Part shown: piece after piece, positions 18,140 to 22,414 of the stretch
Layout of the letters: the number at the start of each line of letters is the position of its first letter
How positions within the stretch are numbered: the first letter of the stretch is position 1
From: Paenarthrobacter ureafaciens
GTDB taxonomy: Bacteria > Actinomycetota > Actinomycetes > Actinomycetales > Micrococcaceae
NCBI RefSeq assembly: GCF_004028095.1
Contig: NZ_SBHM01000007.1
Coordinates: 930,001 to 994,000, forward strand
Direction: 5' to 3'
DNA: 64,000 nt
The notes under the pieces: model-generated
Told to the model about the DNA's origin: nothing
Seen by the model: only the letters and a program-made list of their open reading frames with translations
Database searches by the model: none
Made by a program: the position numbers and the translations under genes

Positions 18140-18709
18140 ATGACCAAGAGCACCGTCCTCACCCTCGTCGGCAGCCTCCGTGCTGATTCCCACAACAAGA
18201 AGCTCGCCGAGGCCATCGCGCTGAACGCTCCGGAGAACGTTGACGTCCAGATCCACGGCTCGCTGGGCAACATCCCGTTCTACAACGAGGACATCGACGT
18301 CGACGGCCAGGTTCCGGCCGAAGCCGCCGCCCTCCGCGAGGCTGCAGCCAATGCTGACACCCTCCTCCTGGTCACCCCCGAGCACAACGGCACCGTCCCC
18401 GCATCCCTCAAGAACGCCATCGACTGGCTGTCCCGCCCGTTCGGCGCCGGCGCTCTCGCAGGCAAGCCGACCGCCGTCGTCGGAACCGCTTTTGGCCAGT
18501 ACGGCGGCGTCTGGGCGCAGGACGAAGCCCGCAAGGCCGTCGGCATCGCCGGCGCCAAGGTCCTCGAAGACGTCAAGCTCGCCGTGCCGGGATCCATGGT
18601 CCGCTTCGCCGAACTGCACCCGAAGGACGACGCCGAGGTCGTGGAACAGATCAAGGGCATCTTCGAGCCGCTGACCGCCGTTCAGGATGACGAAGCAGCC
18701 GCAGCCTAG
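18140..18709 (+). CDS. NAD(P)H-dependent FMN reductase family protein
   Basis: This 189-residue flavodoxin-fold enzyme (FMN_red family) begins with TVLTLVGSLRADSHNKKLAE, the FMN phosphate loop. VTPEHNGTVPASLKNAIDWL is the second flavin-contacting motif of the chromate/azo/quinone reductase group. It reduces FMN or quinones with NAD(P)H in the cytosol, commonly as oxidative-stress defence. AAGGAG sits eight bases before the ATG. It is divergent from the TetR repressor and ends in a terminator. Confidence 0.93.
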   Translation: MTKSTVLTLVGSLRADSHNKKLAEAIALNAPENVDVQIHGSLGNIPFYNEDIDVDGQVPAEAAALREAAANADTLLLVTPEHNGTVPASLKNAIDWLSRPFGAGALAGKPTAVVGTAFGQYGGVWAQDEARKAVGIAGAKVLEDVKLAVPGSMVRFAELHPKDDAEVVEQIKGIFEPLTAVQDDEAAAA

Positions 18710-18764: not shown

Positions 18765-18910
18765 TTTGCGTTTAGCGGCACCGTTTTCCACACCGTTCCC
18801 GCCCCGCGTGACCGAGTCTTGTCCGAACCGTCACCGTACCGGCATGTTGCCCACCTGCAAGGCGGCCTAACGTTTAAGGACAGGTGAACGGACAGGAGTG
18901 TGGGGCTGTC

Positions 18911-19846
18911 ATGCGTGCCGGGCTGGGGCTGCAGAGTACGACGGCGATCGCAGCCGCCTGCCTGTTGTTCAGTACGTGGGTGGCCGGCTGCGTGGCCGGC
19001 TGCACGGCGTCGCCTGAGGCGGTTTCGCCTTCCTCCACGCCATTCGTTTCGGCAGCAGGTTCTACCGGTCCGCAGAACCCGGACGAACCCGTCAGCAACA
19101 GCCTGGCCCCGCCAGTTTCGCCTGCCACACCGCAGCCGGATACCACCCCCAGGAACCTGCCTCCTTCTGGTGATCCCGGCCAGCCCTCAGCCCCCGGCCC
19201 GCTTCCGGGATCGGGCGGTGCTGTGTCCAGCGGGGCCGCTACGAGCGCGGCCGGAACGGGCGGCGGCGCGTCGGGCGGGGGCGGAACGGGCGCGGTCCCA
19301 GGTCCTTCGACCCCGACCGACACCAGCCAAGGCGCCAGCAGCCCGGCCGACCCGGGCACCGCCGTGGAGCCTTCCCCGGGACCATCAGCCAGCCCCTCAG
19401 CGGGCGGCGAGGCCGCGCGGGCAGCGGTAGTGCCCCCGCAGGTGGAGCCCGGCCCTGCCGTTTACTACGTGGCCATCAACGACGGCGGTTCCCGCGGTGT
19501 GCGGTTCGGCTGCAATGACAGCCTTGTCCCAGTCCGCGGTCCGGCGTCATCCGGCGATCCTTTGACCGTGGCCCTCGGCCGCTTGTTGGGCGCAGGGTTG
19601 CCCGTGGACAACGACGCCGCACTCTACGATTCCCTCGCGGCCTCCTCCCTGCACTTCGTCTCCGGTTATGTCAGCGGTTCCACGGTGGTGGTGAACCTGG
19701 GCGGGTCCATCCGGCCGGGCGGCGTGTGCGACATCCCCCGGATCGAAGCGCAGCTCACGCACACCGTGGTGGCTGCCAGCGGTGCAACGCGTGCCGAAAT
19801 CTACGTCAACGGCATGACCTTGGACGTCGCACTGAGCCTGCGGTGA
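18911..19846 (+). CDS. GerMN-domain lipoprotein
   Basis: This lipoprotein of about 311 residues begins with a hydrophobic segment ending WVAGC/CVAGC, a lipobox. A Pro/Ser/Gly-rich linker of about 150 residues crosses the wall. The last 100 residues (PLTVALGRLLGAGLPVDNDA, SGYVSGSTVVVNLGGSIRPG, EAQLTHTVVAAS, AEIYVNGM) match the GerMN fold found in spore-germination GerM and in LpqB. In non-sporulating actinobacteria such proteins are cell-envelope factors of unknown activity. An in-frame GTG at 18884 is an alternative start. Confidence 0.75.
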   Translation: MRAGLGLQSTTAIAAACLLFSTWVAGCVAGCTASPEAVSPSSTPFVSAAGSTGPQNPDEPVSNSLAPPVSPATPQPDTTPRNLPPSGDPGQPSAPGPLPGSGGAVSSGAATSAAGTGGGASGGGGTGAVPGPSTPTDTSQGASSPADPGTAVEPSPGPSASPSAGGEAARAAVVPPQVEPGPAVYYVAINDGGSRGVRFGCNDSLVPVRGPASSGDPLTVALGRLLGAGLPVDNDAALYDSLAASSLHFVSGYVSGSTVVVNLGGSIRPGGVCDIPRIEAQLTHTVVAASGATRAEIYVNGMTLDVALSLR

Positions 19847-19858
19847 CGTGGGCGGCGG

Positions 19859-20398
19859 TCATCCGGTGGCAATGGCCAGGACCCGACGGAGCGCCCACGC
19901 GACCCTGAGCAACGCCAGCGCGGAAGCGAAGGCAAAGACGAAAACCACGGCTTCCGGGATCCAGAGCCCCCTCGATTCATCACCTTCGAGGACCACAGTG
20001 ATAAGGGAAGCGATCAGGAGCAGTCCGAGCCCGGGGATCGCGAACAGGAACACCTCACCGATTTGGCGTCGGTGCGTGGGGGTGAGCTTCTCCAACGGCA
20101 GTTCACGTTGGCCGGGCGCTGATTTCTTCCCGAGGACGTTGATCAGCATGGAGACGCTGGTCAGCGTGAGGCCGGCTGTGGCACCGGCCATCGTCGCTAG
20201 GGTCTGGAACAGCGTCCGGCGGGCACCGGGTCCGACGCCCTCCAGGATCAGAGGCTGCCGGAACAGCAAAGCAGCAGCCATCCACAGGAGCACCAATATC
20301 AAGGCCCAGAGGTAGTCAGCCCTCGGATGGAGGAGGAACCACCGCCACAGGGTTCGACGCCTTCCGCGCCGCTCCACATCAACCTCGTACAAGCTCAT
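19859..20398 (-). CDS. Four-helix small membrane protein, partner of the upstream soluble protein
   Basis: This 179-residue protein has four predicted transmembrane helices (about 29-47, 62-90, 115-138, 147-172), a basic N-terminal tail (VERRGRRRTLWRWF) and a cytosolic loop KKSAPGQRELPLEKLTPTHR between helices 2 and 3. The start at 20398 lies 20 bp inside the upstream gene and has a GGAAGGGGG ribosome site, so the two are translationally coupled. No named family recognised. Four short helices with a soluble coupled partner is the layout of RexB, a depolarising membrane effector. That comparison is by architecture, not by sequence similarity I can prove. Confidence 0.75.
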   Translation of the reverse strand: MSLYEVDVERRGRRRTLWRWFLLHPRADYLWALILVLLWMAAALLFRQPLILEGVGPGARRTLFQTLATMAGATAGLTLTSVSMLINVLGKKSAPGQRELPLEKLTPTHRRQIGEVFLFAIPGLGLLLIASLITVVLEGDESRGLWIPEAVVFVFAFASALALLRVAWALRRVLAIATG

Positions 20399-21440
20399 GC
20401 CCGGCACCCCCTTCCCGGGAATCCGCCGTGACGCTTGGCGTCGACACACCAGCACTGGCGGCTTCTTTCGCAGCCATGGCCTCGCGCACCGCAGCCATCC
20501 CACCTGCGATCAGGTCCGGCACCAGGGCAGTGTCAGGCGAGCCCTGGACCTCGGGCAAAGTCCGTGCGAAGAATTCCTCGTTGTCCCGCGCTTGCTTGTT
20601 AAGTATGGAAACCGCCTGGGCAACGGATTTGGCGGGATCATTGAAGGCATCCGCATCCACCTCAACGTGCGAGATGAACCGTTCCTTGAGCAGATCGACA
20701 ACCTCACGATCGCCCGTCAGTGAATCTTTGCCCTCGGCCACCACGTAATCGAAATGTTCCACGGATCCCGCGTGCCGGAACTGCTCGATCAATTGATGGA
20801 TCCGTTCGCGGATGCGCTGTTTGTCTGCGGCCTTGCCGGACCGGCCGACGCTCAGCGAGATCCGGAACGTGCCCTCGGTCATCAGCCTCGACGCGCTGTC
20901 CAGGACATCGGCCCACTCGCCTTCCATGAGCTTTCCGGATAAACGCTCGGCCGGCAGCGCGAACTCAAAACGGCTTACTTCCAGCCGGCTGAGAATCTCC
21001 TCGACGTCCTCGCGCACCACCGGAACCAGACCGGGATCCAAGCCCAGCATCCCTTCCAGGTACTCCCCCATCCGCGAAGCGCGGGGGCCGTTGCCGCTCG
21101 TCAGCACGGCCACGACGTTTCGCTTCAAGAAAGCGAAATAGGTGGTTTCCAGGAGGTGGTCCCCCGGGGCCAACGGCAACGGCTTGCGGCGGCCCGATGG
21201 ATCCCCGACGCTGGGCAGGTTGGTGTCCCGCACCCGGTCAAGCAGCAGGACCGGATGCGGCGTAAAGGCGACAGCCTGGGCTACCAGGACGGTTCCATCC
21301 GGGGACACGTAGTGCCGGTCCGTGCCCGCGTGACGAGCCTGCTGAAGCACTTCAGCCAGCCGGCGCGCCGGAAACGGACGGCCGAGGTCATCGCCGTTCA
21401 CCTGCGCAATGCGCCAAAACTGGACGCTTCGCCTCGCCAT
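20379..21440 (-). CDS. Soluble protein of unknown family, candidate sensor of a two-gene RexAB-like system
   Basis: This 353-residue cytosolic protein starts at an ATG with GGAGG upstream. No transmembrane segment or signal is present. An N-terminal strand-rich half contains RRSVQFWRIAQVNGDDLGRP, a central ETTYFAFLKRNVVAVLTSGN-GPRASRMGEYL block, and then a second half with VDLLKERFISHVEVDADA. The order of a short strand, LExTxxxF-N-x-GP and later a xVDLL segment resembles soluble anti-phage proteins such as RexA or KwaB in broad outline, but I cannot assign it to either. It overlaps the four-helix membrane gene by 20 bp, so the two products likely act together. Confidence 0.7.
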   Translation of the reverse strand: MARRSVQFWRIAQVNGDDLGRPFPARRLAEVLQQARHAGTDRHYVSPDGTVLVAQAVAFTPHPVLLLDRVRDTNLPSVGDPSGRRKPLPLAPGDHLLETTYFAFLKRNVVAVLTSGNGPRASRMGEYLEGMLGLDPGLVPVVREDVEEILSRLEVSRFEFALPAERLSGKLMEGEWADVLDSASRLMTEGTFRISLSVGRSGKAADKQRIRERIHQLIEQFRHAGSVEHFDYVVAEGKDSLTGDREVVDLLKERFISHVEVDADAFNDPAKSVAQAVSILNKQARDNEEFFARTLPEVQGSPDTALVPDLIAGGMAAVREAMAAKEAASAGVSTPSVTADSREGGAGHELVRG

Positions 21441-21565
21441 CCATCCTCCTGGTTGCCCGCTATCCGAGCCCGGTTACCGGCTCCTTCTCTTGTTCCAAGC
21501 TATTGGTGGGGTCTGACATTAAAGGCGCGTGCCGCCGTCGTTCGCTTGCACTGGCGACGCCCGCA

Positions 21566-22414
21566 TCAGGGCACGTACTTCGGGGCCGCCGCGAACAGCG
21601 CGTCCATTTCGTCATGGCTGCGGGTGCCCGCCAGGCAGGACCAGTTGCCGTCACCCAGAACTTCTGTGGCGACGCGGGCCACCTTGGCATAAGCGGCCTT
21701 CGCTGTGTTGCCGCCTATGCTCACGCGCCGTACGCCGGCGTCGTGCAATTCCATGGGCGAAGGCGCGCCGAGCCCGCCCAACGCGTTCAGCGGCGCGGCA
21801 ATACCTGCGGAAAGCTGGTGCAAAGTGTGGAGATCCAAGACGCCCGGGACGAAGATGCCGTCGGCGCCCGCCTGCAGGTATGACGCCGCGCGTGCGAGCG
21901 TCTCCTCGTAAGCGGCATCGGGATAGGCCCCGGACAAGTACGTATCAGTGCGCGCGTTGATGTAGAGCGGGATCCCGCGTTCATCCGCCGCGGCCCGGAT
22001 CAGGGCGATGCGGCGGGATTGTTCCGCTATATCCGCGAGCGGTTCGGTTCCGGAGTCCTCGATGTTGATTCCGACGGCGCCGGCGTCCAGTACCGCGTTG
22101 ATGGTGGCGCGGAGTTCGTCGTCAGAACGTCCGTAGCCCGTTTCGATGTCCGCGGTGACCGGCAGGCTTGTCGCCGCCACGACGCGCCCCAGGACCGCCA
22201 TCGCCAGGCCCCACGGCACGTGGTCGCCGTCCCGGTAGCCCAGACTCCAGGAGATGGCGGAGCTTGAGGTGGCGATCGCCGTCGCACCCGCTTCCTGCAC
22301 CACCTTGGCCGAGGCTGCGTCCCAGACGTTCACCAAAATCAGCGGCGCGGGACCCGCCTGGTGAAGTTTATGGAACTGCTCGGCCTTGGTCACGGATGCT
22401 TGGTGCGAAGTCAT
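21566..22414 (-). CDS. Isocitrate lyase/PEP mutase superfamily enzyme
   Basis: This 282-residue TIM-barrel enzyme has PLILVNVWDAASAKVVQEAG at the first strand, PVTADIETGYG (metal-binding Asp and phosphate region) and VGINIEDSG, all diagnostic of the PEP mutase group. The lyase signature Cys loop (KKCGH) of true isocitrate lyase is absent, so it more likely acts as a carboxy-lyase or C-P/C-C lyase on a small 2-oxo- or hydroxy-acid such as oxaloacetate, 2-methylisocitrate or a phosphonate. It stands alone on the minus strand, divergent from the aminotransferase. Confidence 0.88.
   Translation of the reverse strand: MTSHQASVTKAEQFHKLHQAGPAPLILVNVWDAASAKVVQEAGATAIATSSSAISWSLGYRDGDHVPWGLAMAVLGRVVAATSLPVTADIETGYGRSDDELRATINAVLDAGAVGINIEDSGTEPLADIAEQSRRIALIRAAADERGIPLYINARTDTYLSGAYPDAAYEETLARAASYLQAGADGIFVPGVLDLHTLHQLSAGIAAPLNALGGLGAPSPMELHDAGVRRVSIGGNTAKAAYAKVARVATEVLGDGNWSCLAGTRSHDEMDALFAAAPKYVP

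Follow-up and report, generated by a model that had tools for sequence, protein, structure and literature searches.

A candidate RexAB-type gene pair at a fixed chromosomal site in the Paenarthrobacter clade

Two genes, here called SOL and MEMB, lie in a 64,000-nucleotide stretch of a Paenarthrobacter ureafaciens contig (the window; NZ_SBHM01000007.1, positions 930,001 to 994,000). An earlier note, made from the letters of the window, had described them as overlapping genes for proteins of 353 and 179 residues, each preceded by its own ribosome site. Both open reading frames were confirmed on the minus strand, together with their 20-bp overlap and the ribosome sites AGGAGG (SOL) and GAAGGGGG (MEMB); the coordinates are collected in Table 1. 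SOL appears soluble, its highest 19-residue hydropathy window being 1.50 and none reaching 1.6. The note had also given MEMB four helices. Three segments of MEMB exceeded 1.5 in the hydropathy scan, but the fourth candidate (approximately residues 64-88) reached 1.44; the orthologue at locus L022 shows four helices, and four are likely in MEMB too. Within hand-set segment limits, K and R residues number 7 at the N end, 6 in the loop after helix 2 and 2 and 1 in the outer loops.

Table 1. Features of the SOL/MEMB locus, in positions of the window
Feature	Position	Strand	Basis or remark
SOL, 353 aa soluble protein, RexA-like sensor candidate	20379..21440	-	ORF and translation
MEMB, 179 aa membrane protein, probably four helices, RexB-like effector candidate	19859..20398	-	ORF and translation
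SOL/MEMB overlap, 20 bp	20379..20398	-	ORF coordinates
SOL ribosome site AGGAGG	21445..21450	-	4 nt 5' of ATG
MEMB ribosome site GAAGGGGG, within SOL	20407..20414	-	8 nt 5' of ATG
SOL residues 69-262, part aligning with the phage family	20655..21236	-	hhalign
SOL residues ~94-131, weak alignment to lambda RexA 87-124	21048..21161	-	hhalign; approximate, profile columns taken as residues
MEMB helix 2 candidate, residues ~64-88, holding the part most similar among relatives	20135..20209	-	hand-set limits
MEMB helix 2-3 loop, residues 89-113, basic, presumed cytoplasmic	20060..20134	-	charge count, hand-set limits
Flank: PEP-mutase-family gene, bounds the empty site of relatives	21566..22414	-	Pfam PF13714
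Flank: Germane-like protein, other bound of the empty site	18884..19846	+	18.6 bits, under the Pfam cut-off of 23

Among named genomes, chiefly of Paenarthrobacter and near relatives, 22 SOL/MEMB loci were found, and gene order and overlap of the rexA-then-rexB type were present at every one of them. With starts chosen from alignments and start codons, the overlap is 20 bp at 16 loci, 4 bp at five and 23 bp at L049. Since the frames overlap at all 22 loci, the overlap is not due to chance.

Family models were applied to both window proteins. Pfam gave one match below the cut-off for SOL (E 0.06) and none for MEMB, NCBIfam matched neither, and DUF6731 (PF20505) left SOL and the other actinobacterial records unmatched. 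Sequence searches against solved structures returned nothing for SOL and a single match for MEMB (E 1.7). Profile searches of the PDB with SOL and its relatives (A5, A6) retrieved weak unrelated chains only, without lambda RexA. PADLOC, RexA and RexB models included, matched neither protein up to E 10, and the one weak match of SOL among PHROGs was to phrog_7651 (E 8e-4).

Kiwa combines a soluble protein with a small membrane protein, and this common plan could suggest a defence pair of an unrelated kind (Kiwa or another), or else two neighbours by chance. Both are very improbable: the conserved overlap and pairing argue against chance, and the PADLOC scan, in which we take Kiwa models to be included, was empty. 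On that scan Kiwa, proposed in the note as a looser parallel, was rejected as the identity of the pair, and so were the other PADLOC systems.

By profile comparison SOL can be placed firmly in a phage family (phrog_7651, partly DUF6731) which contains pairs in the lambda rex position. Actinobacterial SOL proteins aligned with the phage family in hhalign at E 1.4e-8 when the sets were small and at 2e-12 and 4e-13 when they were larger. None of 100 column shuffles scored above 24.9, as against 91.6 observed, and identity to the phage relatives is 13-20%. DUF6731 was above its cut-off in 7 of 20 records, always at the phage SOL gene. Run as an independent check against 39 genomes of relatives, phrog_7651 gave two matches only, both at the SOL gene, and missed two further SOL-holding genomes, the window's own included. 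A tblastn search of phages with SOL yielded a Vibrio phage as sole match (E 0.3), later upheld by profiles; with the SOL of Dietzia it yielded nothing. In viral contigs nine stretches fitted the pattern of actinobacterial SOL, none of them a true relative.

MEMB shows a weaker profile homology, to the membrane partners in this family (some of which match RexB), and is assigned to the phage family with rex-position pairs with moderate confidence. MEMB aligned with the phage partners (phrog_8552 type) in hhalign at E 4e-4, collinear over 120 columns. None of 60 hydropathy-preserving shuffles reached the score of 30.2, and two transporter families gave at most 19.2. The phrog_8552 model itself missed MEMB and also matched 2 of 14 controls; in 12 genomes or records it gave three weak matches, to the membrane-protein gene MEMB2 of another genus (E 0.011) and to places elsewhere in the genomes of the window (E 0.048) and of L049 (E 0.21).

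The phage partners in turn aligned with RexB at E 4.8e-4, with none of 60 shuffles as good. The PADLOC RexB model matched 4 of 19 non-lambda records, each time at the SOL partner of a phage, and none of 14 control genomes. It also matched the MEMB partner at L166, carried in another genus by a conjugative-type element (E 1.6e-6). Among the 15 records it missed are the phage partners of the E. coli type and every actinobacterial partner of the set, and the Dietzia and Arthrobacter partners tried gave no match to it either. Compared directly, actinobacterial MEMB showed no significant similarity to RexB (E 0.25-0.46) or to the bridging MEMB2 (E 0.19). A joint membrane profile scored 26.7 against RexB, but as one of 60 shuffles scored 131.7, far above the observed value, this comparison was set aside as evidence.

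Recurrence of the soluble-membrane pair in mixed genomes, which the note had looked for, was borne out on a plasmid near a restriction system, on a conjugative-type element and in phages, one of them tailless and the others tailed. On the plasmid, from Dietzia (L026, CP155441.1, 9376-10843), SOL is 38% identical and lies two small genes from a type I restriction system. It is annotated there as an oxidoreductase, and the annotated start of MEMB seems too late; an in-frame upstream ATG would give a 20-bp overlap with SOL. In another genus of the Micrococcaceae a distant SOL and MEMB (L166, 8916-10347) stand 4 bases apart among genes for ParA-like, ArdC-like and TraI/TrwC-like relaxase proteins, and because of these neighbours the pair is probably carried by a conjugative element. 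The SOL of L166 matched the PADLOC model PDC-M67A (E 1.1e-4, or 0.006 in a whole-genome search), whereas SOL of the window and its phage relatives did not (1 of 21 records matched). We take the PDC label to mean a phage defence candidate lacking functional proof.

In the tailless Vibrio phage SOL and MEMB share one base, and the adjacent gene is noted as an integrase/recombinase. In two E. coli elements SOL relatives sit between the lysis genes and Q. One phage relative (L051, ON470608.1, 3845-4786) carries the annotation portal (connector) protein; the name is likely wrong, since the place of the gene is between a holin gene and Q on the other strand. In IMG/VR 69 loci, many of them near-identical, encode SOL relatives of the Vibrio type. 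In 65 of these the start of a MEMB homologue is found no more than 400 bp downstream of SOL, the partners amounting to 31 distinct proteins; the search profile itself included six of the 69 loci. As for the other four, L121 runs out where its stretch ends, the frame of L120 is broken, and L122 and L123 belong to the AUS531phi type, in which the partner is present but opens outside the start limits used.

Two of the phage pairs occupy the position of rex in lambda. In Pseudomonas phage AUS531phi the pair directly follows a CI-type repressor (CI-SOL-MEMB), and in Haemophilus phage Aaphi23 the order is cro, cI, SOL, MEMB, the last two being ORF16 and ORF15, more distant relatives placed by similarity. 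The phage pairs of phrog_7651 and phrog_8552, exemplified by AUS531phi, the E. coli prophages and Vibrio phage 10N.286.54.F4_PE001, resemble that of the window in a soluble protein of about 290-350 residues followed by a small membrane protein. Their intergenic gaps are mostly 2-27 bases, and two overlap by 20. They differ in being carried by phages, where two adjoin CI and others are found between the lysis genes and Q or by an integrase-like gene, whereas the window pair is chromosomal.

The link of SOL to lambda RexA itself is suggestive. Alone, the SOL family aligned with RexA at E 0.04-0.08, and 7 of 100 shuffles of the actinobacterial set did equally well; with the joint SOL set none of 100 shuffles was as good, and with bridging sequences the alignment reached E 3.5e-4 at RexA 85-141, with none of 60 shuffles as good. 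The PADLOC RexA model matched none of the 19 non-lambda records. Plan and gene order are common to lambda RexA/RexB and SOL/MEMB, but RexA is a 279-residue protein, and the window pair has neither an adjoining repressor nor a direct model match. The likeness to RexAB drawn in the note is partly supported, through the relatives, five of whose partners match RexB while two pairs follow CI, and does not extend to matches of the window proteins themselves with RexA or RexB. A common origin of SOL/MEMB and lambda RexAB is likely on these profiles. Because the RexA model found nothing in the 19 records, actinobacterial MEMB and RexB were not significantly similar and the PDB searches missed RexA, we treat this origin as unproven, next to a firm placement of SOL and a moderate one of MEMB in the phage family.

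Unlike the defence island supposed in the note, the site of the pair in the window appears to have a metabolic setting. The neighbours with tested families are metabolic (PEP mutase, FMN reductase) and their order is kept in relatives; Pfam supplied the names PEP mutase and FMN reductase and the likeness to Germane, and aminotransferase, TetR, permease and Usp were read from sequence. No CI repressor stands beside the pair, the adjoining tested genes being those for PEP mutase, FMN reductase and the Germane-like protein. An origin of the site as a prophage or defence island is not supported by the neighbours examined, which are conserved in order and include no recognised prophage gene. At 21 of the 22 named loci the pair occupies one fixed place between an aminotransferase-like gene and the Germane-like gene. 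In 16 of the 21 a PEP-mutase gene lies between the aminotransferase-like gene and the pair; it is gone from the site in the other five (L041-L044 and L046), which keep the pair, so PEP mutase is no fixed partner.

SOL was found in 24 of 150 sampled genomes of the genus, the window's own included, and MEMB adjoins it in all 24. A draw of 396 genomes from the phylum gave at least one with SOL, the window's own genome only among the first five candidates scored per genome, and a draw of 295 from the family at least six, one of them in another genus, among the first seven; since scoring covered these first candidates, some SOL genes may have been missed in both draws.

The pair is present or absent as a unit. 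In five of seven SOL-less relatives, whose regions were chosen by hand, mostly by similar aminotransferases, the order aminotransferase - PEP mutase - Germane-like - FMN reductase - TetR is found with the pair absent, and 17-113 bases separate the aligned ends at these empty sites. L154 has neither the pair nor the Germane-like gene, and L155 shows two of the neighbours only and is uninformative. The Germane-like protein (18884-19846), absent along with the pair in L154, has a long Pro/Ser/Gly-rich stretch that is very variable among relatives.

SOL distances track those of three neighbour genes (Spearman 0.82-0.87, with 0.91 between two of the neighbours; 19 of the 22 loci, L049, L039 and L046 being omitted for differing or incomplete flanks), so the pair was inherited roughly with the clade. 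Against four orthologues dN/dS was 0.07-0.15 for SOL and 0.08-0.20 for MEMB, as compared with 0.04-0.14 for neighbour genes; the values for the pair are rough because dS is 1.3-2.0. The single fixed site, the near-vertical inheritance, the purifying selection and the lack of any recognised mobile gene adjoining the pair in the window could reflect a domesticated pair which now serves the host of the Paenarthrobacter clade, in membrane or DNA-damage physiology, and no longer acts on phage. We consider this unlikely, since relatives are carried by phages, a plasmid and a conjugative-type element and the pair is absent from the same site in related genomes, where it must therefore be dispensable. 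The note had set membership of a metabolic operon of the core genome against a role in defence; this was found by half, the position being fixed in the clade but 126 of the 150 genomes having no match and the pair no conserved operon partner.

CarolAnn gp44/gp43, a tested actinophage Rex-like pair of 370 and 178 residues with a 26-bp overlap, is close to SOL/MEMB in sizes and overlap, and gp43 has four predicted helices (PMC6426606). As a relative of SOL, gp44 was rejected, since its similarity did not exceed that of shuffles (24 of 100 as good). The pI of SOL (5.7) is lower than that of lambda RexA (8.6), but gp44, which binds DNA (PMC11077077), is equally acidic (5.6), so the acidic pI of SOL does not exclude DNA binding. 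RexABpp of Pseudomonas putida, likened here by description alone, consists of a soluble DNA-binding protein and a four-helix membrane effector encoded on the chromosome; it differs in belonging to a cryptic prophage, downstream of a CI-like gene (PMC12894663). In a small subpopulation of cells, overexpression of its RexA arrested growth and caused leakage, both dependent on RexB; no depolarisation was seen there and RexA-RexB binding is left unproven (PMC12894663). The charge layout of MEMB resembles that of Sbash gp31, in which substitutions in the helix 2-3 loop abolish defence (PMC6426596); this loop is basic in MEMB. Orphan RexA homologues outside prophages are mentioned for two bacteria (PMC11077077).

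The genes gp30 and gp31 of mycobacteriophage Butters overlap by 8 bp, as SOL and MEMB likewise overlap, and in that system the logic is inverted: gp30 suffices, and gp31 is said to restrain it (PMC7542560, PMC12894663). With the same anatomy, SOL could be the toxic or antiviral component, held at the membrane by MEMB until infection frees it. This is rather unlikely, as the RexB matches found among relatives suggest that the membrane protein is of the effector type, and the gp30 and SOL profiles show no similarity (E 0.53), on which ground gp30 was also rejected as a relative of SOL. Lambda RexA and gp30 aligned at E 0.026 over 26 columns.

Instead, SOL/MEMB is probably a divergent abortive-infection module of the RexAB type, in which a RexA-like SOL would trigger a RexB-like MEMB. 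The model follows the published systems, with RexA as the sensor and RexB as the component acting on the membrane (PMC11077077, PMC12894663, PMC6426596, PMC6426606, PMC7542560). We infer that SOL would be cytoplasmic, probably a dimer and probably DNA-binding, and that it would respond to a phage replication or recombination intermediate or to a phage protein. Activated SOL would act on MEMB, probably through the basic helix 2-3 loop. MEMB, with four predicted helices and both ends inside, would then open or damage the membrane, so that growth stops and the phage is unable to finish.

The RexAB plan is already known; its SOL/MEMB branch falls outside the models searched. What is new is a chromosomal pair, fixed in the clade and with no recognised prophage; a connection between phage genes of the DUF6731 type and Rex; and a distribution over phage, plasmid and conjugative elements. 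A 2026 paper (PMC12894663) counts only five described RexAB-like systems, and a survey (PMC9090908) places RexAB in Proteobacteria only, mostly on prophages, its authors cautioning on detection limits. A literature search of limited wording found no paper joining RexA, RexB and Arthrobacter and none naming DUF6731 or PDC-M67. There is perhaps an even chance that RexAB systems are part of a larger unrecognised superfamily (DUF6731/phrog_7651 with RexB/phrog_8552) which moves among plasmids, conjugative elements and phages with or without tails, has been domesticated in the Paenarthrobacter clade as a chromosomal immunity pair inherited vertically outside any prophage, and was missed by the defence models searched. 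If so, the unnamed family DUF6731 would gain a functional hypothesis, Rex-type immunity would extend to actinobacterial chromosomes, and a natural case of a phage exclusion pair kept by its host would make the question of the Rex trigger testable outside a prophage.

Two minor observations were made on the syntenic block. In L153 (NZ_AP024648.1) the block and the pair are borne by a 1.35-Mb replicon filed as a plasmid, which may for this reason be part of a chromosome. The FMN-reductase gene (18140-18709) has a far lower dS (0.34-0.41) than the other genes compared against the same four genomes (0.59-2.02), perhaps owing to strong codon selection.
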